Source of the DNA: Pseudovirgaria hyperparasitica
Lineage: Eukaryota; Ascomycota; Dothideomycetes; Acrospermales; Acrospermaceae
DNA: 64,000 nucleotides
Reading direction: 5' to 3'
Assembly: GCF_010093815.1 (NCBI RefSeq)
Contig: NW_022985553.1
Span: forward strand, 1,522,133-1,586,132
Both the position numbers and the translations under genes were made by a program. Below are positions 945-59,235 of the stretch, piece after piece. Under the pieces are notes generated by a model. That model was not told the DNA's origin, made no database searches, and was given only the letters and a program-made list of their open reading frames with translations. Positions within the stretch are counted from its first letter, which is position 1. The number at the start of each line of letters is the position of its first letter.

Positions 945-3111
945 ATGTCTCTCGTTATGGATCATCACTACTTCGCTACCACCAGCGATCTTAATGATGT
1001 GACTGCTGCATTCGACTTTTCTAATTTCCCACCAGAATACCCCTGGGGCACAGCAACTGACACGAACTCTTGTGAACAACAAAGGCCAGTCCCTGCATCA
1101 GAGTCAAACGAGCAATGGTACACAGTCTCAACGTCGTCTCATTTTCAAGAATAACACCTTGCATAGGCCTACATCTTCCAGTGGTCCATATCAAATAGCG
1201 CAATTCTCCCCAAACTATCAGGCATACCAGTATCAAGCTCTGCCTTTCACCAGCCCTCTGCCAACGACCTGGAACTCGTCTCCTGCGCCGCTACCATATG
1301 AAAATATTGCAGCTGATATCCCGAGGACTCTCGAATACGATGCACAGTGTGGCCTAACACCGACACTCCTGGGTGCCCATGATCTTTCGGTCTCGCCAAA
1401 GACCATGCCGTTATCTTTTGCACCAGACGTGCAATCGCAGTGCGAGTCAAGAAAAGCGTCTACGAATCGCAGTCGACTTTCCTATGAGGCTCGAGCAATT
1501 CTAGACCGGTGGTTTGAGCAGAACAGATCAGACCCGTATCTTGAGAAACCAGAGGCCGAGGATCTGGCCACCGAGACAGGACTGACTGTCCGGCAGGTGC
1601 GAACATATTTTGCAAACGCTCGTGCTCGCAAGCTGCCTCCCGCATCGGCCACAGAGTCGAGTGGCGATACGTCCAGCCGAGCCCAGACAGAAACTCCAAG
1701 AGGCTCTATGGATCAGGAGGATCAGACCCAGGCTCCTCCACGACGGCGGCGCTGGGCATCACATGAACGAGTGTCGATCAGTCAGCAGCCAAGCCCTATG
1801 GAGCGATTCCTTCACAGTTCGCCTGAAGAGGAAGGGATTCCTGAAGGGATCGTGGAATGCGCGGCGAAGAATCTGGAAGAGCGGAGAGGCAGCGAAGCAG
1901 GATCTTCGAGATCATTGCAAAAGAGAAAGCGAAACAGTTGCAAGATCGAAGTACAATCGGATATTGGGCGTAGCAGCAATCGTGGCTCCGAATGTTCGCA
2001 TTCGAGTAACGAATCCAATGCAAATCGACCTGGGCCAAGGCGTGGACGCAAACGACAACCGGACACCTTTCGGCTACCTCCAACGTCCCTCATAATTCGC
2101 GCGCCTTCTGATAGCAAGAAGATATTCCAGTGTACGTTTTGCCCGCGCGACTTTGCTCACAAGTATGACTGGCGCCGGCACGAGGAGAGCGTGCACTTCC
2201 CTCAGTTCGAGTGGATATGTATGCCTGATAATGAGCCAACCATACTGGCCGCGTCTGGTGCAATCACTTGCGCTTTCTGCGATCAGCCCAACCCTACTCC
2301 AGCGCATCTCGAGTCTCATAACTGCTCTGGATGCCTCGCAACGTCTCGTTCGCAGCGTGCCTTTACTCGAAAGGACAAATTGCTCCAGCACATTGGCCAA
2401 GTCCACAAAATGTCAGTGACACCTCGTCATCTCTCTACATGGAGTAGGCCTGTAGACCGGGATGTGTCATTCTGGTGCGGCATCTGCGGTATTCGTCTCA
2501 CTTCCTGGCAAGAACGAGTTGACCACATCTCTGGGCACTTCATGGTAGGCCAAACCATGCAACTCTGGAGAGGCGAACCAGGAAACATTCGTCTCGGCAC
2601 CGATACTTCTCTTCCATTCTCGCGAGGCACATCTCCAGCCCCAGAGCACTCTCCTGCTCTGACATTCTCCGGACTGCCCGGCCCAAAGCCACACATGTGC
2701 ACCACAGGCTGCGGCGAGCACTTTAGGACCCATACCGGCCTCGTCTTCCATGAGCGCCAAAGTCACAACATCTATCGCAGCCAGGTGATGTCGAGTCCCC
2801 CGCTCTTAGTCCCTTCCAATGCGACAACATACATGGACTTGCACTATCCTGTCCTCGCAACAGCGCCGGCCGCAACGTCATACTTCCACGACTTTTCGGG
2901 TTCGGAAATGGGTAGCACGGCCTTGATAGCCCCTCAGTATGCGCCGCCACCGACTGACTTTACACTCGCTTTCGATCCGAACTACCAGGGAATGGCTCAG
3001 CCTGTCCCCATTCATGCGAATTGGAGTCGGCGACACAGTGGAGCGGAAGGGCAAGGCGGCGCGGAAGTTGGCCTCCCAGGATCATCGGTGTCTTCTTCAC
3101 GTGGAGCATGA
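945..3111 (+). CDS. Homeodomain plus C2H2 zinc-finger transcription factor
   Basis: Predicted nuclear DNA-binding regulator; targets unknown. Two exons, 945-1117 and 1167-3111, are joined across a 49-nt GT-AG intron (1118-1166) that moves the start ATG into the frame of the long exon, giving about 705 residues. The first in-frame ATG is 945; a second ATG at 957 is an equally good start. A TALE/KN-like homeodomain lies near residues 158-215, with recognition helix QVRTYFANARARK: Phe49, Asn51 and Arg53 are kept, but the usual Trp48 is Tyr. A Ser/Arg-rich linker follows, then several C2H2-type units from about residue 377 to 590, beginning FQCTFCPRDF and ending CTTGCGEHF. Fungal proteins that combine a homeobox with C2H2 fingers are a known architecture. 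The family call is firm; the biological role is unknown. Confidence 0.85.
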
Positions 3112-32838: not shown

Positions 32839-34695
32839 TCAAAAGCTCATCGCCCGCCGCCTCTGCAGTTTACCCCTCTTCTTCGATTCTTGTAGTTGGA
32901 TATCGTCTTTCTTCACGTCTAACGCCGCTTCACGACCATCCTGATTGGATCTTTTGACCGTCTCTAACGACAAGCCCGATCTCAGCATACAAGCGACGTC
33001 ATAAGCGGCACACATATTTCTTCTCATCCTTCTTTCTCCTAAGCCCTCTCTGGCTTCAAGTGTCCTAGACCTTGTTCGTGCCGCTGATAGTGGTACCGGT
33101 GCCAGGACTGCTGGTCCCAGCAAGGGTCGAGGAGTTTCAAAGGTAGGCCGGCCGCCTCGCGACAAGTAGTGCTCTAGATCGAAAGGTGTGTTCAGAGGGT
33201 CAGACGTCGGTGAAATGGATTGAGACAACATGTGAGGCGAGGTTTCAGATGTGTGTGCATGTTTCTCTGAACTTGAGGCTAAAGGTGCTGAGAAGTAGTC
33301 TTCCGCCCCTGGAGAGCCCTCTTCGGTACCGCGACTCGGTGTAAGAAACATACCAGAAGAGGCAGTCTTGGATATAAGCAGCGGACTAGATGACCCCAGC
33401 TGTTGCTGTCCAGCTGTAGTGACGGTTTCTGTGACTGACTCGGTAGAGTTCCAAGGTGCCATAGATTCTTGTTGTATGCCATAGGTCCTGGTCTGTAGGT
33501 CTTTGCATGTCGCTGTATCCATGCGTGTTTCATTCAGATACTCGACCATACCAAGTTGATCTTCAGGGCGCGAATGAGGAGATAATGGAGATTCTCTGTA
33601 GCGAGCATAAAAGCTAGCCAGTTTTGGCCTACTAAGAGGCATCACAGGAGCCCGAGATGTAGGAAGCGAACTATTGGGTGGAATTCTAGGCATCTCGGGT
33701 GGTTGTAACTCCAAGGAACTATGTACAGTATGTCTCCGCTCTTTGGAAAGAATGGAGCCCAGTCGGTGGCGTAGAACGGCTTCCCAAGGTCTCTTCAGGA
33801 CGGGATCAGTAGTAGTGCGAAGAACGGGACCCATTGTGGAACTTCGACGTGTCCATGATCGCTTTATCCTGGTCAATGAATGCAAGAAGCCTGGTGACTT
33901 TAGGATGTGTGCAGGAGGGACGGACCCTCGCATAGCTTCCGATGATAGTGAGGTCATACTGTTCGTACGAGATGCTTCTGGTCCACTGTTCTCAGATAGG
34001 AGGAGCTCCGCTATGGTTCGAGATCTGATGCTGTCCGAATCATTCGTATCCGCTGAGCTAGCGTTGGTGGCCACTTCACGGAGCATATTTCTCTCTAGGT
34101 GTGCCGAAACTTCAGTCGTTCCCGGATTGAACTCGCTCCAATCTAGGAATTCCTGTAGTGACTCGATGGGATTCCGTTGCGGTTGCGTTTCAAGACTGGG
34201 GGAATCCGTTGTTTTCCTTGGAGCTGCAGAGTCTCCCAAGGATGAGCTGGAAGACTTATGTGCATGTGATGCAAGTAACGGACCCCTAGTATGATAAACT
34301 TGTGTCGGGTAACGTTTTCTTCTATTATGTTGGCGAAGACAACCCACAAACTCTGGTTGGTACTCTGGACAGGGGCTGCGACCTTGGCTACTGCGAGTCC
34401 CAACTGGCTTGACTGAATTATGACTAGTTGCTAGCATTTCAGCTGAGCTCAGTTGAATAGTATCGTTCCGGGTAGCCTCTGGAGAATTAGGAATGTGAGG
34501 GTCAGACCCCAAGGCGGAAACTTCTCCCGAGAGATTCCGTGGAAAAGTCTGTTCGTAAGTCGCGTGCTGCTCCATATGAAGCCATTGTGAGGCATCCTCA
34601 GTCATCTGTTCACCAAATTCTATTACACGAGCTTCTTGGACCAACTCTTCACACCCAGCGAATTCGTGCTGGTTGTTTTTTGGTATGTATTTCAT
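32839..34695 (-). CDS. Hypothetical protein, large and intrinsically disordered
   Basis: Single open frame; the first ATG at 34695 gives 618 residues (the frame extends a little further upstream without an ATG). I do not recognise a named domain. Composition is Ser/Thr/Pro/Arg-rich with many SP/TP and RxxS sites, suggesting a phosphorylated, disordered regulator. The most protein-like block is near the C-terminus: RRMRRNMCAAYDVACMLRSG, then LSLETVKRS, followed by a Lys-rich tail. Length, lack of stops over 1.9 kb and steady codon use support a real gene. Convergent with alpha-COP. Function unknown. Confidence 0.65.
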   Translation of the reverse strand: MKYIPKNNQHEFAGCEELVQEARVIEFGEQMTEDASQWLHMEQHATYEQTFPRNLSGEVSALGSDPHIPNSPEATRNDTIQLSSAEMLATSHNSVKPVGTRSSQGRSPCPEYQPEFVGCLRQHNRRKRYPTQVYHTRGPLLASHAHKSSSSSLGDSAAPRKTTDSPSLETQPQRNPIESLQEFLDWSEFNPGTTEVSAHLERNMLREVATNASSADTNDSDSIRSRTIAELLLSENSGPEASRTNSMTSLSSEAMRGSVPPAHILKSPGFLHSLTRIKRSWTRRSSTMGPVLRTTTDPVLKRPWEAVLRHRLGSILSKERRHTVHSSLELQPPEMPRIPPNSSLPTSRAPVMPLSRPKLASFYARYRESPLSPHSRPEDQLGMVEYLNETRMDTATCKDLQTRTYGIQQESMAPWNSTESVTETVTTAGQQQLGSSSPLLISKTASSGMFLTPSRGTEEGSPGAEDYFSAPLASSSEKHAHTSETSPHMLSQSISPTSDPLNTPFDLEHYLSRGGRPTFETPRPLLGPAVLAPVPLSAARTRSRTLEAREGLGERRMRRNMCAAYDVACMLRSGLSLETVKRSNQDGREAALDVKKDDIQLQESKKRGKLQRRRAMSF

Positions 34696-35308
34696 GTAGG
34701 CAAGATGCTGTATGGATGTGTGCAGCGAATTTTGTCGCACGGGCTCATATATAGAAATATGTTCATGAATTAGGAGGTTTTGACAATTAAGAACTCCTCA
34801 ATCGGAGTGGCGTGGTCAGGTAGTAAGGTGTACTAATTGAACGCGGAGACTGTGAGTCTATGGGTAATGAGACCGCTATACATTGGTAGAGACATACCCA
34901 GAACTGTATGTCAGCTCTCGTGTTGCGACGTCAGTCTGCTTTGGGCTGCCGAACTCAGTATCTGCTCTGTGCCAGGCAGGAACGCATAGGCTGTTTTGTG
35001 TATAAGCTAAATGAGGTAGGTAGGTAGGTAGATAGGCAGAGTCGTGCGAACGAACCGATAGGTAGGTAGCCAGAAACGAATTGGACAATCTTGAGAGGTT
35101 GGGCAACGTGTATTGTGCATGGTTGTATCCCCGAATCACTCTCACAGCAAGAACGTGTGGGAAGACTGCGGCGCTCGGAGTTGTGGTTTCCATATATGTA
35201 TTAATACAATATCAGCTCTAGTTACTACTAAACACACATATGAGGTACTGTGCGGGGAGTATTCTCTATTGGCTCTAGTATGAACTATGTGTCGCACTGG
35301 TTCCTGAT
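34696..35308. other. Intergenic region between two leftward genes
   Basis: No gene seen. A GGTA-type tetranucleotide tract (AGGTAGGTAGGTAGGTAGAT) lies near 35014-35033. It should contain the promoter of the disordered hypothetical and the 3' flank of the TFIIIC subunit gene. Confidence 0.5.
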
Positions 35309-38845: not shown

Positions 38846-39302
38846 ACATTGGGCATGCAATGTACACTAAGCTTCCAGATTTCAGTCGAAAATGCGCAAT
38901 GCCATACATGTTTCTCGGAATCACTATTACAATGTCATTGTTCTAGATATTCTTAGACGTCTAAGTCCCAAGAACATATTTCTGATACGACTCACTAAAT
39001 TAGCAATTGACTATACAGGTCAATCAACAGCAGGCATAATTACTTCTAGGATAAGTATATTGTCGAATTGGTGGTAATTTTTGTGGTAATAAGGGGCGTG
39101 GTCCGTGCTAAACTAGTGAGTTTCCACGGACCTTTGTGTCGGCGCGTCGCGTCTCGCGTCAGTTGCTGGATGCTCGACGTGAACCAGTGCCAGACATTAT
39201 TAGGCGTGGATAATAGCTATAAAGCTGCACATGCAATCAAGTATTAACTAAGCTTTAATACAACTTTATTCATTATCTGCAAATTTATATTCACCACTGC
39301 AG
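38846..39302. other. Intergenic region upstream of the DNMT5 gene
   Basis: 457 bp, AT-richer than the flanking genes, with no gene. It should contain the vps62 3' end and the DNMT5 promoter. Confidence 0.5.
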
Positions 39303-42300
39303 ATGTTGTCGTCGAATCGACCGAGAAAATTCGTCGGCGTTGTCATCTACAATGATCCTGTATCACGCGTTCAGGGTCAAACAACTTTACCGAAGAGGCC
39401 GCGCCGAGATACCAATGAAGGACTCTGTGAACTGAGGCAAGAACCTGGACCGTCTGGTGTGAAGCGCAGGAGGATATTTTCTCATGTGGAGAGTAAGTAT
39501 TGGAATATTCATTAACTTGGCTATCTATCCTCAGCCAGAAGGGATCATTGACAACCGGTAGTCTTCAAGAAGCCTAATACAACGTATGATGTCGAGGCAG
39601 TTATTGAAATTCCACGTCATGCGAACACGAGTCGACGCAACAAACCTCGCGTGTCCTATAAAGAGGTCGAATTTTTGTCCGCATCAGACAGCGAGGATGA
39701 TTTCAAATTCGAAGTATCTTCTGATGAACAGTCGAACTTTGCCGCAGATACTGACAGCCAACCCGATACCGACATAAGCTCCGCATCAGAAACTGAACCA
39801 GAGTATACCGATGAATCAGAGATACAGCATGATGATGAACCCGTCCCAAAGTCCCAGCAACGAAAGCTGCCAGCGAAACAGAAGTCCATCAAATATGGTG
39901 TGTCCGAAGGCTCATTCAAGGCTATTTCAGAAGCTAAGCAGCTTCCACTCCCAACACTTGGTCGTCAGTCAAGCAAAGGCTTGGATCCAACCTTACCACC
40001 ATTGTCAAAGATCGATGACATCTTCATTGACATCACCGACAAGGCTTTAACTCTTGGTCTGAGTGACGTGCTGAAGTTTCTTGGGGGCAGACCACTTCGC
40101 GTAGCCACCATGTGTTCAGGGACAGAGGCGCCTATGTTGGCCCTTAATCTGATATCCAGGTCTCTGCCCATGTCCGAGGAGATGCTGAACATCGAGCACG
40201 CCTTCAGTGCGGAATTTGTGCCTTTCAAGCAAGCATACATTTATCGAAATTTTGCACCAGATGTCCTTTTCCGAGACATTCGCGAATTTGAGAACGACAT
40301 GGACAAAGCAGGCGCGACAACTGTCTGGGGAAGCAAAAAGACACCTCCTGGAAACGTCGACCTGTTAGTCGCTGGCTTTAGCTGTAAGGACCGGTCGCCT
40401 CTTAACATGCATCGTAAAGAAGTTGGTAAGAAAGGCGAGACAACCGACACTCTTAAGGGCACCATAGCGTATGCGCGAGAAAAAAGACCAAGGATTGTCG
40501 TCTTGGAAAATGTCAAGGGTATTGAGGACGATTGGCCAAAGATTCAAAAATATTGGGAAGACATCGATTATGCGGTAATGAAATTGAATGTTGATACCAA
40601 GAATTACTACATCCCAGCAACGAGGCAAAGAGTAAGATCCTACACTCAAAGTTTCATGTAGGTTCGTAAGCTAAAATTCGCAGGTGTACATTTTGTGCCT
40701 CGATAAGAAAGCGTCTAAAGTCGACACTAAAGAACCACTGCACAAATGGGAGGATTTGATGTTGCAATTCCGGCGGCCAGCTTCTTCTAGCATGGAGGCT
40801 TTCATGCTCCCGGACGACGATCCACGGGCACGTCACGTACAAAAAGGAGATCCTTCACGTGAAACTGATTGGACCAGATGTCGAGAGAGACACCTGAATA
40901 TGAGAGCTAGGTATCGACTTGGTGAGCGTCGTCCATTCACTGAAGGTTACCAGCTCCAAAAGCCTCGGGTACCAGACTTTTCGAATCACGCCTGGCACAC
41001 AAGACAAGCCAAGCGTGTACTCGATCTCCTAGACATATCGCATTTGAGAAACGCAAGACCCGAAAGGGGTGGCTATGATTCATGGTACAAGCTGCGCTGC
41101 TGGAACCCAAGTCAAAATGTCGACCATGCTAGTGGAGCAGATACGCAAGCTTTTGGCATAGCACCATGCCTTACACCCAGAACCATCCCGTACAATAGTT
41201 GTCGTGGCTCGATGATCTCTGGCTTAGAAGCATTAGCTTTGCAAGGAATCCCCATCGATGATCTTTTGACCATTGAGACAGATTCTGAGCTGGCTGATCT
41301 CGCTGGGAATGCAATGACAACAACCGTCGTAGGGCCGGCAATATTATCAGCACTTATTGTGGCATTGCCTCACATGCGACTTTCGTCAGGTTCACCTGGG
41401 CCTCCAAAAGATACTGCACGAATTACGAAGCCAGAGCCACGAACAGTTGCGACACAGAGAATAGTTCAAGCGTCATCCGGGCCAAAATCTGAACACTTGC
41501 TCACGACGCAGAAGCTTCTTGGGGAAGCTATTGCAAGCTCCCGACGATGCTCATGCGAGAAGCAAGGGGAGACTAAGAGCTACGTACGCGAGTGTAGCAG
41601 CTGTGGGTACACTGCTTGCACTGATTGCCTTGGGAATCCTCAGCACGTGTACATTGAACGAACTTATCTTGTAAAGTCTTCACGTAGCAGTCCGATGGAA
41701 TTCGTGGCGGAGTGGAAGCCTCGACTTCCTTTATGTCTAAACTTCGACGGCGTTGGGAATTGTACTTCGATGTTAAAGCACATGACTCTATCGACAAAGG
41801 AGCACAAAGATCGATACCTGACACTCCTTCAAGGTCTTTACGAACAAGACTTCGTGCTAGGTCCGTTTCGCCGGTCTGATGGGCACTGGACCGTTATGTA
41901 TGAGTCATCGAACGGCTACTTGAAGCTCATTCTTGGGTCCAAGCCAAAGTGGCTCTTATACCTAAAGTGTCCTTCCGATTTACCTGTCAACAGTGAGCTA
42001 CGAGCAACCATATCGCAACCTGTTGCTCGCTCAGAGGGCTTCATTAGCGTATTCGGTGACGGTTGGAGTCAGTTTGTTCCATGCAGAAAGAAGATCAGTT
42101 TCACAGTCACAGCCTCCAGCTCTACCTCACCGTCATGGAGAGCCGTGCTAGGCTTTCCAGATTTCGAGAATGAGACGGTCCCAACTCGCTTGACCATAAA
42201 AACGTCGAAAGATGCTCATGGACTTGACGAATCCCTCGATGGCGAATATAGACACCTGCCAGAGTGTGGGACTGCGTCTCAGATGCTGTATCAGCGGACT

Positions 42301-45300
42301 GGCACAGATCCGTTATACCTGTTTCTCGATCCGTCCAAAACCGGTAATCCAGATGAAGATACAATGGTTTTCAGCTACGAGCATCGTAGGCTCATGGTTG
42401 ATGAAACGCGTGTGACAATTGCTCGTTTAGACCCAAAATTTCGTCCGTGGGACTTTGCGCAGGGACCCAGTACAAGAACGATTACAGGTGAAAGCAATGG
42501 AAATTGGTCTGCCAACGATGTTCTGAGTTTACACCCTAAGCAAACCAAAGCGAACGCGCTCATCCCGTCAAGTCTCAGACAGTGGCTCGACTCGTGTGAC
42601 GTAGATACTTGTGGGCAGCTCACGACGATACTGTGTTGTGAGTTTCGTATTGACACCTCGACTCAGAATGAGCTTTCACAATGCAGATCCCCAGCCTCCG
42701 CGCAGGATCTGCTGTTGTCTCGCTTCATATCATTCGCACAACACTGGCAAAGCCATGTAAAGCTGAGCGAATGGCAAAGTATGGACGTCAATGACAAAGT
42801 TTGCGGTAAATGCGAGCCAACAAGACCTCCAGTCACATGGGCCGTCGATAAGAAAGGCAACAGCACGGTCAGATGGATTGAGTTGGCTGAACCAGCTGCG
42901 GTTTATGAGCGAGCCGTATCTCAAAGACCTCTGGCCCATAGTCTGCAGGCAGAGGTTCGCCAAGGCCAAAGCGGTGGCTCCGGTCGTATTGGGGTTGCCT
43001 GCGATGTCGTTACACTACTGCATCGAGCTATGGCCAGGTTCAATGGGAAGAATGGATCAGAGAGCGCACAGTGCAGACTCCTCACAAAACCCCAACTAGG
43101 GACCATTTACAAACGAGAACGTTTCATACTCAAAGACAATTCAGGCGACAGGACATACTCCGTAGAGCTTGCGAATGGCTACAAACTGTTCAAGAACCAG
43201 CAGAGGTCATTACATTGGATGCGACAAAGAGAGTTGCATCAGAGCTGCATTGTTGTCGAAGAGGTTGAAGAAGATGTTATTCCACGTCTTGAGTGGCGCA
43301 TGGAGGTGAAGGCCACACGGAAAGTTGGTGTCAGAGGAGGCTGCTTGGCTGACACTGTCTCGTATGGCAAAACCCTTCTCTCTCTCTCGCTCATACATGC
43401 CGAATTCCTCGACAAGTCTATGCGAGACCTTGAGCAAGAGAATGAAAAGATAGCAGGGGATCTGATTAATGTCCCCGCAAGCTTGGTCATATGTCAGCAA
43501 AGTTTGACTACTCAATGGGAGAATGAAATTAATAAGTTCCTCCCTAAAGAGGCTTATAAAGGCACTGTACTCGTCATCCGAAAATTTGGGGACCTACAGA
43601 AACTTAACGTGGAAAATATCCGCAAGGCAAAAATTATCATTTTGTCTTGGTCAGTGCTCGCAGACAAGTCATACATCGAGAATTTGGGATCATTCGTGGG
43701 TATGCCTACGGTTGAGGCCGATAGCAAGTACTCGTATGGTCGTCTGTACACCCTCTGGATACAATGCTGTGCGGAGCGGATTCCGAAGTGCCTCAATAAT
43801 TTGCGGGCCGAGGGGCTTGCCAAGTTCTCTGAGTCGGAGCCGCAGAGATTAGAAGAGAATTTATCACGACCAGAATTTGCGGGTGTTCTTCCTGATAAAT
43901 ATTACACCGGGCAACGATATGTTAAGGAGGCAGAGAAGCAACGCCTTGTTGCAGAAAGAGATGCAAAAGTCCGGAAGAGCGGACCATCGAAACAGAAATC
44001 AAAGAAGCTTGCATACAATGCTTCGGATTCGTGGAAGGACCTGCAAGGCCCTCCCATGCATATTTTCTCATTCAATCGAATCATTGTCGACGAGTTCTCC
44101 TATCTCGAAGAGGGCACTTCCCAGGACAAAAGCCATCCCGTCCTATACCCTTCCATCAAAAGCTTGACCGCACCAAAGAGATGGATTCTTTCCGGGACTC
44201 CGGCGTTGGACGACTTCATCGATGTGAAGCGCATGGCCGCACTGATAGGCGTCGATCTAGGTATCAATGACTATACCCCAGGAGTCGTCACGAAGAGGAA
44301 TCTAGAAGCATCAAGAAAATCACAGACGGTCCTCGAGCAGTTTGAGACATATCGGAAGGCCAAGTCTGTTGATTGGCACCAGCATCGGGACGCAGGAGCG
44401 CAGCAGTTTCTCGATCAATGTGTGCGTCGAAACGCTGCTGATCTACGGTCTATATCATGGTCCGAACGACTTGTTACGACGATACCATTATCAGGTCAGC
44501 GCATTCTCTATGACGAGGCAGCCGCGCACCTTTCTATTCCCAATATCAAGAGAACTAGCCCGGCATCCGATCCCTCAGATCGCGCTTCCTCAATCCGAAT
44601 GTTCTGGCAGGAATCTGACACATTTGAAGAGGCATTGGTCAGAGCTTCAAACGAATCGACACCGCTGCGAGATATAGAAGAAATCATCTCGACAAGGGCA
44701 GCAGAGAAGAATCAAATGTCCGAGAATCTCGACAAGCTCCTGTCTCAGGTCAAGGGCCTTCCTGTATCCCTTCGTGACGACCGATACTATAGCGGCTGGC
44801 TACGAGAGGCAGATAAGAACCATGACCTGAAGGCGCGATTTGACGCAGTCGTCGCAGGTCCCAAACAGAGTTTCGGCACAGAGGGACTGAAAAATCTCTT
44901 CGACAAAGTCCGGACCACGACGTACAAATTACAAGTCATGGAGAATGCCCTGAATTACGCAAAGCAGGTGAGGAGATTCGAGGCTCGCGGACCTCCGAGA
45001 TGTGCGACTTGCACCAAGTCTGCAACTGTGGTGCTTCCTCTGTGTGGTCACGCAGTGTGCGAGACTTGCTACGAACATGCCGCGGCACGATCAGAATGTG
45101 TCGATGGATGCGAGGCGCTTTCAACATTCGCGACTCGCGACCTCGACTTCAGTCGTGCGGAGACGAAGATGACAGGACTCATCAAAGTCATCAAGGGCAT
45201 ACCGAAGGACGACCAGGCACTCATCTTTGCACCGGGCTCGGAATCGGTGAAGAACATCCGAAAGGTGCTCCGAGAACATAATGTATCCTGCTTCGCCATC

Positions 45301-45938
45301 GTCAGCTCCGAGGAGCGCGCCGTCGAGGATCTCGAGGAGTTCAAGGCAGACAGAGACCCTAGCACGAAGCGCAAGGTGCTTGTGCTCAACGTCGGCGATG
45401 AAACTGCGGCTGGCAGGTAAGTGCTACGAACTCAGCAGTTCGACCACGACATACACGTGTGTATATATACTGATACGAAGCCAGCAACCTGACGAATGCG
45501 AATCACATCATCTTCATCGCCCCACTGCTCTCTCGAACTCAAGAGCACTACAACCAAGCAATGGAGCAGGCAATCGGTCGCGCCAGGCGGTACGGGCAGA
45601 AGAAAGAGGTCCAGATATACCGCTTTGTCGCCTTGGGTACGATCGAGGCAGACATTCTTCAGCTCAGAGAGCGGAGGAACTGTGCTTTGAGACAAAGGCC
45701 AGATGAAGAAGAAGTAGAAGCAATCACCGTCCAGGCTAACGACGGCAAAAAGGAGCCGACTCTGTTCGTTCGTTCGGAACAGGGCGAGATTGCGCTTGTG
45801 CCGGCGTCCTGGGCGAACAGAAAAGAAGATTTTTCGAAACGGTTGCCAGGATTTAACTGTAAGAGTCCGAGTACGGGGGCGGATCTGAGGCTTGGATCTG
45901 GTGGACAGCACGTATTTGCTGAGCACTACTTGGCTTGA
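39303..45938 (+). CDS. dnmt5: DNMT5-type C5 DNA methyltransferase fused to RING and SNF2 ATPase
   Basis: Predicted nuclear ATP-dependent maintenance CpG methyltransferase. Four exons, 39303-39492, 39562-40631, 40684-45416 and 45485-45938 (introns 69, 52 and 68 nt), give 2148 residues without a stop. The N-terminal ~150 residues are basic then acidic. The C5 methyltransferase domain shows motif I VATMCSGTEAP (~243), motif IV GFSCKDRSPLN (~335, catalytic Cys), motif VI VVLENVKGIEDD (~378), motif VIII YYIPATRQR (~417) and motif X LAGNAMTTTVVG (~628). A Cys cluster (CSCEKQGETKSYVRECSSCG, ~712) follows. The SNF2 half has P-loop LADTVSYGKT (~1309), Walker B IIVDEFSYLEEG (~1555), RWILSGTP (~1589), an inserted RING (CATCTKSATVVLPLCGHAVC, ~1858) and helicase motif VI QAIGRARRYGQ (~2028). 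This domain order is diagnostic of DNMT5. The SNF2 part alone resembles Rad5/SHPRH-type ATPases. Confidence 0.93.
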
Positions 45939-56911: not shown

Positions 56912-57580
56912 TTACGATACGCCATCGTGGAGAGGCGGACTGTCGAAGCGACCAGCCCAGAATCCCTTGCCGTAGCTGACAAGAATTTCCTCGCCTTTGG
57001 CGATACCTTTTGATTTTTTGCCAGCCTTCCCGGCCGCAAGTACAAATATCCCAACTCCCTGCTGGAGCTTTCCACGTCCCATATCAACCCAGATGTCTCT
57101 GAACTCGGCATTTGGCCCGGAGGCGATGCCACGGTAGTCATTCGTGAATCTCGCCTCGTTTCCCATATTAGTAGCATCTATCGCAACCCCAAACTCTCGT
57201 TCGAGCGAGATATCGTAGTCTGAGACCGGGTCTGTATCGTTCTCCCCGTGGACAAAGCCTATATACGGCAGTATGAAGGCCGATGGCTGGAGATGCTGGG
57301 CTGCGAAGAGTCCGCACTGTCCATTAGCAGGATGTGAAATGTTGGATATCCGCGTTATACGGACTTTTTGGGAGGGTCCGCGGTCGTGTGGAGTAATCGA
57401 TATATGCGGTTCATCGCTTATGTTCTTGAAGAGCGCCTGTTTGGTGTCCGTGAGCAGCAAAGATGAATATATAGGCTGATCAATAAAGGTCACATTCGAT
57501 GGCCATGATTTTGGTAGTTGTAGCGATGATACTAGCTTGGGAGAGAAGTTGGACGGTTTTTTCGCTCTCTGGTGGGCCAT
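56912..57580 (-). CDS. SET-domain protein, putative lysine methyltransferase
   Basis: Single exon, 222 residues from the ATG at 57580. The open frame extends upstream to 57649 only without an ATG. The SET domain starts near residue 75 with NGQCGLFAAQHLQPSAFILP, has the inserted IGFVHGENDTDPVSDYD segment, then NEARFTNDYRGIASGPNAEF, where the Asn (in RFTNDYR) takes the position of the SAM-binding NHS motif. It closes with KGEEILVSYGKGFW, the C-terminal Tyr-bearing SET motif. There are no pre-SET or post-SET Cys clusters. Small stand-alone SET proteins like this are common in ascomycetes. Substrate (histone or other) cannot be told from sequence. Confidence 0.82.
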   Translation of the reverse strand: MAHQRAKKPSNFSPKLVSSLQLPKSWPSNVTFIDQPIYSSLLLTDTKQALFKNISDEPHISITPHDRGPSQKVRITRISNISHPANGQCGLFAAQHLQPSAFILPYIGFVHGENDTDPVSDYDISLEREFGVAIDATNMGNEARFTNDYRGIASGPNAEFRDIWVDMGRGKLQQGVGIFVLAAGKAGKKSKGIAKGEEILVSYGKGFWAGRFDSPPLHDGVS

Positions 57581-59235
57581 TCTGCTGCAATAGCTTGTCG
57601 CTACTCGCCGGTGTACCACCGCATAATCAAGAGTAGAGCGTGGATGCACAGCTATAAGCAGAAGTGAGTCTCAGAGCTTACAACACAGGTAGGAGTAAAG
57701 AAGATAGATAGACCACCCGCATCAATAATATATAAAATAGCAAACTGAACGAGTGTTGAATGAAGGGCGTAGCCGGGCACAAGTGATGGGTTTGTGCTGG
57801 GTTCTGCCGCCCTCTCTACGCTAGAACTAATCCGGCAACAAGCAATTAGCTGGTACAGTATATACTATTATCATATAACCCTTCCATCCATACACTTCCA
57901 TCGTTCCTCCGTCCACTTCCACTACAGAGCATGACATGAAAAACTTTTATTCCTCAAGGAGGATTCCATGCCGCTGCAGTCACCCACCACGTACACAACC
58001 AGTCATGTTTGTTTCCGTGCTACGACAGGAGTCACTCGTTTTGGACCACCGTCATCGGAATATGGAGACTAGTCTCTCCTTCAGCTATCATACGAACATG
58101 GATTCGTAGGTGCTTCGCCGTCCGTGATTAGAACAGCTTTATCGACGCCCCCCAACATCCTCGTATCGCGCGCGATTTTCAGACAACGGTACCCGGTATC
58201 CAAGTGCACTCGGACCGGATTGTGATAAAGAATACATCAGGTTGCAAGGTTGCACCACTTTCAAGCCTGCCTGGACGAGTGAATCATGCAGGAACCCGTT
58301 CAGCCAGGTGCTTGACACAACCAATCACCGAACTGGCATGCATATATGCGCTCTAATGTGGTTCTACTTTAGGTTCTTGGGAGCCAGACTGAGCACGATT
58401 CGCCGAGGGTCTTCAGCCTTCCTCCACAAGTCTTTGCATGTTCATAATCATTAGCAACGAGCATTTGGAGACCGTTATGGTGAAAGTTTCAACGTAGAAT
58501 ATCAGCCAGGACTCATGAAAACGTGCAGGAGCGGCAGATGTATATATGTTAACGGCAACTCAACGATCCACAACACCGTTGCTATAGAACGACCTACATA
58601 TGTCAAGAGCCTGTCGCCAGACGTTCCACGGGGGAGCTACTCACTCTCGACCCAGTCACGACTGCATCTGTAAGACGAAGAAGCAACTGCATCTGTGGTA
58701 CTCAACACTCAGTCGGCGATAGCATACTCTCGAGACCAAACGGACACTTATAGCACGCTCAGAGACTGATGAGGTAGAGTAATTCTTGTGATACACTTTT
58801 CATTATTGGGCTGTAAGAACTGCTGTCGATTCTAATTTCCTGATGCTTGATTGCCAGCTGAGCCGTACCATATATCCCTGTACCTGTTACTTGTGCATGT
58901 CCTGGGAAAGGCCATCCATACTACTGTAAGACTTCTGATTGTATCGGATCCACCGCTGCAACTGCCCAATGCTACATACTCCTTTCCTTTTTAGATGGTA
59001 AACCCAAACGCCATACTCGGCAGGCTTTATCCATGGGCTTCCAACCTGGTACGCTAGCAGGCTCGTATTATGTATAAAACAGTCTCTCATCTTGTTCTTC
59101 CATCTCTTTTCTCTTTCACCACACTCTCGCTCACTACACTACACCAGTACACACCGACTTCGCTCGCTCACCAACCTCTCCTCACATCGTTAACTCTACT
59201 ACTTAATCAGTAATCCCCAAACAATCATTTTCAAA
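57581..59235. other. Intergenic region upstream of the wall protein gene
   Basis: No gene seen in 1.65 kb. The final 170 bp carry a TATA box and a pyrimidine-rich leader typical of a strongly expressed gene. Confidence 0.5.
59073..59079 (+). promoter_or_regulatory. TATA box of the wall protein gene
   Basis: TATAAAA lies 157 bp before the ATG and is followed by a CT-rich leader (TTCTTCCATCTCTTTTC type). This arrangement is typical of strongly expressed ascomycete genes. Confidence 0.55.

Follow-up and report, generated by a model that had tools for sequence, protein, structure and literature searches.

A review describes Cryptococcus Dnmt5 as ATP-dependent, active on hemimethylated CG and unreactive towards unmethylated DNA (PMC13297926), and DNMT5 has been treated as an ancient, broadly occurring maintenance enzyme (PMC10538959). 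In Verticillium, which has the same three methyltransferases as the genome studied here, nearly all methylation was reported to depend on Dim2 (PMC8091789). Loss of Dnmt5 alone left nearly all methylation in place, and methylation in the dim2 dnmt5 double mutant was slightly below that of dim2 alone; the authors speculated that Dnmt5 serves special conditions only or other DNA processes (PMC8091789). In Zymoseptoria without dim2, low CG methylation remained and was attributed to Dnmt5 (PMC8016269). High CG methylation was also reported in two ascomycetes that combine RID and Dim-2 with either DNMT1 or DNMT5 (PMC7862722). Why fungi retain DNMT5 when Dim2 does most of the methylation is a puzzle raised by the Verticillium work (PMC8091789).

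The first-pass annotation of the present DNA described DNMT5 as patchily retained among ascomycetes, and the literature supports this in part. Most Sordariomycetes are reported to have lost DNMT5, and nearly half of the surveyed species are without one of Dim2 and Dnmt5 (PMC12543289). On the other side, a DNMT5 carrying the methyltransferase, SNF2 and helicase C domains was reported in 88/94 Aspergilli, which are without Dim-2 (PMC9676040), and Dim2, Rid and Dnmt5 together were given as the commonest ascomycete set (PMC8091789).

Gene structure and domain organization

Positions 39303-45938 of the window (the whole 64-kb stretch of DNA that was analysed) translated into a single 2148-residue protein encoded by four exons. 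In the splice test, the donors were fixed at 39493 (GTAAGT), 40632 (GTAAGA) and 45417 (GTAAGT). For the acceptors, intron 1 was given 2/9 listed AG sites, intron 2 all AG in 40650-40719 and intron 3 all AG in 45450-45519. Two combinations were open, giving proteins of 2148 and 2140 aa. The shorter version used a later intron 2 acceptor and lost the eight residues VYILCLDK after TRQR. The 2148-aa model was preferred because these residues align to the Dnmt5 chain described below. The spliced frame of 2148 codons with introns at 39493, 40632 and 45417, as first annotated, was thus reproduced, and the observation of one intact gene was confirmed. The gene structure is as follows:

39218..39223, plus strand: possible TATA box TATAAA, 80 bases upstream of the start codon, proposed from the sequence only
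39303..39492, plus strand: exon 1, aa 1-63 plus one base, beginning at the first ATG of the frame
39493..39561, plus strand: intron 1, GTAAGT...TAG, 69 bases, placed only by the splice consensus and the reading frame, as no Dnmt5 chain aligns to the N-terminal region
39562..40631, plus strand: exon 2, acidic linker followed by the first part of the methyltransferase
40632..40683, plus strand: intron 2, 52 bases, within motif VIII (TRQR|VY); the Dnmt5 alignment continues across the splice
40684..45416, plus strand: exon 3, open throughout, from the rest of the methyltransferase to the start of the helicase C lobe, in the order methyltransferase end, cysteine-rich module, linker region, SNF2, RING, helicase C lobe start
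45417..45484, plus strand: intron 3, GTAAGT..., 68 bases; the Dnmt5 alignment continues across the splice (AAGSNLT)
45485..45938, plus strand: exon 4, remainder of the helicase C lobe and C-terminal tail
45936-45938, plus strand: stop codon TGA, at the end of exon 4

All the elements claimed in the first-pass annotation, namely motifs I, IV, VI, VIII and X, a RING within SNF2 and helicase motif VI, were located. A second cysteine-rich module, which follows the methyltransferase at aa about 707-737, was absent from that annotation. The names and catalytic roles of the methyltransferase and ATPase motifs are common knowledge for these families.

40104-40133, plus strand: motif I ATMCSGTEAP, aa 245, exon 2
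40374-40397, plus strand: motif IV GFSCKDRS, exon 2, with the nucleophile Cys338 (codon 40383-40385)
40503-40514, plus strand: motif VI LENV, aa 378, exon 2
aa 417, plus strand: motif VIII TRQRVY, split by intron 2
41305-41334, plus strand: motif X GNAMTTTVVG, aa 628, exon 3
about 41542-41634, plus strand: cysteine-rich module after the methyltransferase, common to the Dnmt5 chain 7r76
43345-43374, plus strand: Walker A LADTVSYGKT, aa 1308, exon 3
44080-44106, plus strand: DE box IIVDEFSYL, aa 1553, exon 3
44182-44202, plus strand: WILSGTP, aa 1587, exon 3
45001-45111, plus strand: RING, aa 1860-1896, exon 3
45567-45599, plus strand: helicase motif VI QAIGRARRYGQ, aa 2026, exon 4

A single polypeptide carried the methyltransferase and, C-terminal to it, the SNF2 ATPase. 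Pfam matched PF00145 (54.7 bits, cut-off 22) and PF00176 (61.8 bits, cut-off 24.9), and PF00271 scored slightly under its cut-off (23.4 versus 23.5 bits). Pfam gave no RING match in the protein, only a weak metal-binding TerY_C (E 0.1); the RING was assigned from the pattern C-x2-C-x10-C-x-H-x2-C-x2-C-x9-C-x3-C, the later part of which aligns to the Dnmt5 chain. Neither a Chromo family nor BAH was matched by Pfam at E <= 1, and none of the 58 chromodomain matches from an exon-by-exon search of the genome lay at this locus. The N-terminal 229 residues matched no Dnmt5 chain, their sole match being an unrelated one with an E of 0.093.

Relationship to Dnmt5, DIM-2 and RID-type methyltransferases

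The genome (35.0 Mb, 59 contigs) was searched with PF00145. All seven candidates were scored, giving four matches that we read as three genes. One is the window gene, and the other two lie on contigs C4 and C20 of the genome (G000):

C4:139280-140446: PF00145 match
L005 2041-5448 (G000:C4:135500-144500): DIM-2 orthologue, 1136-codon frame
C20:121867-122771: two PF00145 matches
L006 3080-5070 (G000:C20:118500-126500), minus strand: RID-type methyltransferase, two open frames

The DIM-2 orthologue matched 9bap with an E of 1.1e-152, followed by DNMT1 chains at 6.6e-30, and carried DUF7893 plus a BAH below cut-off (26.4 versus 30.8 bits). We take 9bap, which is listed as DNA (cytosine-5-)-methyltransferase, to be Neurospora DIM-2. 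The RID-type gene showed PPCQ at motif IV and EET at motif VI, and its closest solved chain was an unspecified cytosine methyltransferase (4.6e-12). EET or EQT at motif VI has been given as a mark of RID (PMC6709928). The two frames of this gene, with a TAA-containing gap and a GTAAGT donor, are probably split by a short intron.

A phmmer search of the solved chains with the whole window protein gave 7r76_A at an E of 8.8e-245 (818.8 bits), aligned in two stretches (query residues 100-1795 and 1868-2098), and the next chain was a helicase-like protein at 1.6e-6. We assume that 7r76, 7r77, 7r78 and 7t02, which are filed as DNA repair protein Rad8, are Dnmt5 of Cryptococcus neoformans. The methyltransferase half alone matched 7r76 at 3.1e-99 and then HhaI at 1.7e-6, and the C-terminal 854 residues matched 7r76 at 4.1e-68 as the sole chain at E <= 1e-8. 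In a methyltransferase tree of five stretches, a small sample consisting of the window gene, 7r76, two DIM-2 and one RID-type, the window gene and 7r76 were joined with a support of 1.000, apart from DIM-2 and the RID-type gene. The window methyltransferase shared 46.8% identity with 7r76 in this comparison, as opposed to 15.9% and 19.8% with DIM-2 (the genome's own copy and 9bap, respectively) and 21.4% with the own RID-type copy. Both halves are thus closest to the Dnmt5 chain, in agreement with the family first proposed, within a narrow test that set closeness to Dnmt5 against DIM-2, RID and DNMT1 among the solved chains and the genome's own genes.

An identity as DIM-2 was rejected, since the E <= 10 listing for the methyltransferase half, 13 sequences in all, contained neither DIM-2 (9bap/9baq) nor a chain named DNMT1, and the protein has no BAH match at E <= 1. 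An identity as RID/Masc1 was rejected because motif VI reads ENV, not EQT or EET, and SNF2 is present. Both families share the C5-methyltransferase domain with the window protein, but they have no SNF2 match; the own DIM-2 copy carries DUF7893, and the own RID-type copy differs at motif VI. Against NCBIfam, none of the DIM-2, RID-type and exon 3 proteins scored above the cut-off of a curated model. Scans with exon 3 gave seven pattern matches among prokaryote contigs and two among viral contigs, none of them confirmed; fungi are not expected in either set.

Sequence comparison with Cryptococcus Dnmt5, similar enough to settle the fold, showed the same domain order, the cysteine-rich module after the methyltransferase, the RING in SNF2, and the catalytic and ATPase motifs. 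The two differ in that the methyltransferase identity is the 46.8% given above and the Cryptococcus-type N-terminal chromodomain was not detectable in the window protein. Verticillium Dnmt5, which we compared by description only, is also reported to be without an N-terminal chromo-type domain (PMC8091789), and for this reason the chromodomain was not treated as DNMT5-defining. The gene content also differs: Cryptococcus is reported to be without Dim2 and Rid (PMC8091789), whereas both have counterparts here, an orthologue of DIM-2 and a gene of RID type. Together with RIP, these two suggest that the present genome is that of a filamentous ascomycete. In its gene content it resembles Verticillium dahliae and Zymoseptoria, in which, by description, Dim2 and Rid genes coexist with Dnmt5 (PMC8091789, PMC8016269). 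Besides the window gene, a genome search with the C-terminal 854 residues returned nine matches. The DNMT5 gene looks single-copy, because the best of these nine reached only 4.2e-8. The gene is a member of a known family in its expected setting, and DNMT5 itself is already known; what it adds is one clean DNMT5 in a genome that combines DIM-2, a RID-type gene and DNMT5 with a strong RIP history.

From these comparisons, we consider the gene to be an intact DNMT5 orthologue, whose product is probably an ATP-dependent methylase that maintains CG methylation in a role secondary to that of DIM-2. That two separate genes, a methyltransferase and an SNF2 helicase, were misread as one is scarcely conceivable. 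Nothing beyond the unusual size speaks for such a reading; exon 3 is contained in a 1581-codon open frame in the six-frame translation of the window, motif X, Walker A, the DE box and the RING share this unspliced frame so that the two halves have an exon in common, and the order of the modules is that of the solved Dnmt5 chain. A decaying pseudogene is very improbable as well. Genes of the DNMT5 family have been reported as repeatedly lost (PMC12543289, PMC9676040), but the chosen splice model has no in-frame stop across its 2148 codons, the motifs are intact, and the composition is gene-like (TA/AT 0.60) and not RIP-like.

We regard as unlikely, though less so than these two, that the protein is DNMT5 by identity with a main job other than methylation, its SNF2-RING part serving DNA repair or chromatin remodelling in a Rad8/Rad5-like manner. 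The filing of the closest solved chain as Rad8 and the almost absent methylation effect of the Verticillium dnmt5 deletion (PMC8091789) would fit this. However, a review considers fungal proteins reported as Rad8 to be likely DNMT5 (PMC7862722), the residual CG methylation of dim2-less Zymoseptoria was attributed to Dnmt5 (PMC8016269), and the methyltransferase motifs, nucleophile Cys and ENV included, are retained, which would be unexpected if catalysis were unused.

Predicted role in CG methylation

As a CG-maintenance methylase, the window enzyme would work as inferred from Cryptococcus Dnmt5: hemimethylated CG DNA would activate the SNF2 ATPase, ATP would then rearrange the active site, and the enzyme would copy CG methylation to the new strand. 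By analogy with Verticillium and Zymoseptoria, DIM-2 would deposit most of the repeat methylation and DNMT5 would be secondary. The slightly greater loss in the Verticillium double mutant speaks for this role (PMC8091789); the near-complete methylation of Verticillium without Dnmt5 alone (PMC8091789), the failure to detect a chromodomain, CpA as the chief mutation context of the repeats and an SRA protein closest to SUVH9 speak against it. Delivery to heterochromatin may require a partner such as HP1 or an SRA protein, because no chromodomain was detected in DNMT5 itself.

The first-pass annotation had further predicted that CG methylation could be inherited and last even with no de novo enzyme. 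This scenario of maintenance alone is inapplicable here, because an orthologue of DIM-2 and a gene of RID type are encoded alongside, and in Verticillium, with the same set, Dim2 accounts for nearly all methylation (PMC8091789). The low CG methylation of dim2-less Zymoseptoria (PMC8016269) and the high CG methylation of the two ascomycetes mentioned above (PMC7862722) are in its favour. The earlier interpretation is therefore partly supported, being right in the identity of the gene and not in the inference of persistence.

Several candidate heterochromatin genes were found in the same genome. On contig C2, Pre-SET and SET lay in one DIM-5-like frame. On C13, the only chromoshadow match and the best chromodomain match were located ~280 bases apart, an arrangement consistent with HP1; the chromodomain match contains three stops, perhaps reflecting an intron. 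The genome also gave one SRA match:

L007 1501-2517 (G000:C4:1502901-1506257), minus strand: SRA-domain frame, 339 codons

No RING match was found within this 339-codon frame, and the closest solved chain of the SRA protein was plant SUVH9 (E 1.3e-5). Of the genes that had been proposed for a genome search, dim-2 was present as an orthologue and rid as a RID-type gene, whereas the SRA protein was closest to SUVH9 and not to UHRF1. Help to DNMT5 by an SRA-type adaptor is described as undocumented outside Cryptococcus in the review cited above (PMC13297926), and the SRA protein found here is a candidate for it.

Mutation of repeats and other features of the window

A reverse-transcriptase search of the genome, in which 150 of 424 candidates were scored, gave 150/150 matches, and by eye most of them contained TAG and TAA stops with few TGA. 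A strong RIP composition (TA/AT at least 1.29, (CA+TG)/(AC+GT) at most 0.57) was present in 25/30 fetched reverse-transcriptase loci and lacking in 5/30; the 18 window tiles had a TA/AT of at most 0.93 and a (CA+TG)/(AC+GT) of at least 1.10. The five loci without RIP composition (L017, L018, L020, L022 and L023), four of which are on contigs under 65 kb, are possibly recent or escaped copies. The loci L017-L046 and L052-L071 are retroelement copies, most with a strong CpA-to-TpA RIP signature.

The mutation contexts were compared in one retroelement family, with L071, which contains the least RIP-like copy of the family (L018), as the reference. The comparison took in 48 other copies (29 from the first set and 19 picked from the list by stop pattern), 35 of which aligned over at least 600 bases; one of these 35, L028, with 64.6% identity, probably belongs to another family. 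C to T changes in the 35 copies reached 71.1% at CA, 26.8% at CG, 12.3% at CC and 10.2% at CT, indicating that CpA (RIP) is the main mutation context of the repeats and CG a secondary one. One hit on CG creates CpA, the favoured RIP target. After correction for such CpA-creating hits, the CG excess over CC/CT was 1.52-fold, with a bootstrap interval over copies (1.40-1.64) that is too narrow because the copies are related. By copy, the excess ranged from 0.71 to 2.28 and by eye was generally higher in the more diverged copies; 3/35 copies showed none (0.71, 0.93 and 0.95). In smaller sets counted beforehand the ratios were 1.34 (n=8), 1.14 (n=2) and 1.06 (n=2), and two other loci taken as reference had no copy that aligned to them.

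Among the 1214 hit CG sites, 914 ended as TA (75%), which is near the CA-to-TA rate of 71%. Because 75% became TA, the CpA mutator had access to the CG hits, which did not occur later than its end. The CpA-creating hits and this conversion to TA weaken the CG excess as a mark of methylation, and the excess is at least as compatible with RIP having CG as a second-choice context, or with DIM-2. It cannot be ascribed to DNMT5, nor does it show DNMT5 activity. We consider it distinctly improbable that DNMT5-copied CG methylation in repeats leaves its own mutational trace next to that of RIP; if it did, former maintenance methylation could be read from the sequence itself, in a genome with DIM-2 and RID as well. 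The CpG observed/expected ratio was 0.90 in the window and 0.95 to 2.13 in the 30 repeat loci. Since CpA loss inflates this value in repeats, CpG depletion was rejected as a sign of CG methylation.

Elsewhere in the window, ARAGORN found no tRNA, and Rfam gave no match at gathering score. A 652-codon open frame at 32842-34797 on the minus strand had no Pfam match at E 0.001. The open frame at 1003-3108 showed homeodomain matches and a weak C2H2 below cut-off and is likely a transcription factor, and the one at 56915-57670 on the minus strand matched a SET domain (24.3 bits against a cut-off of 22.4).
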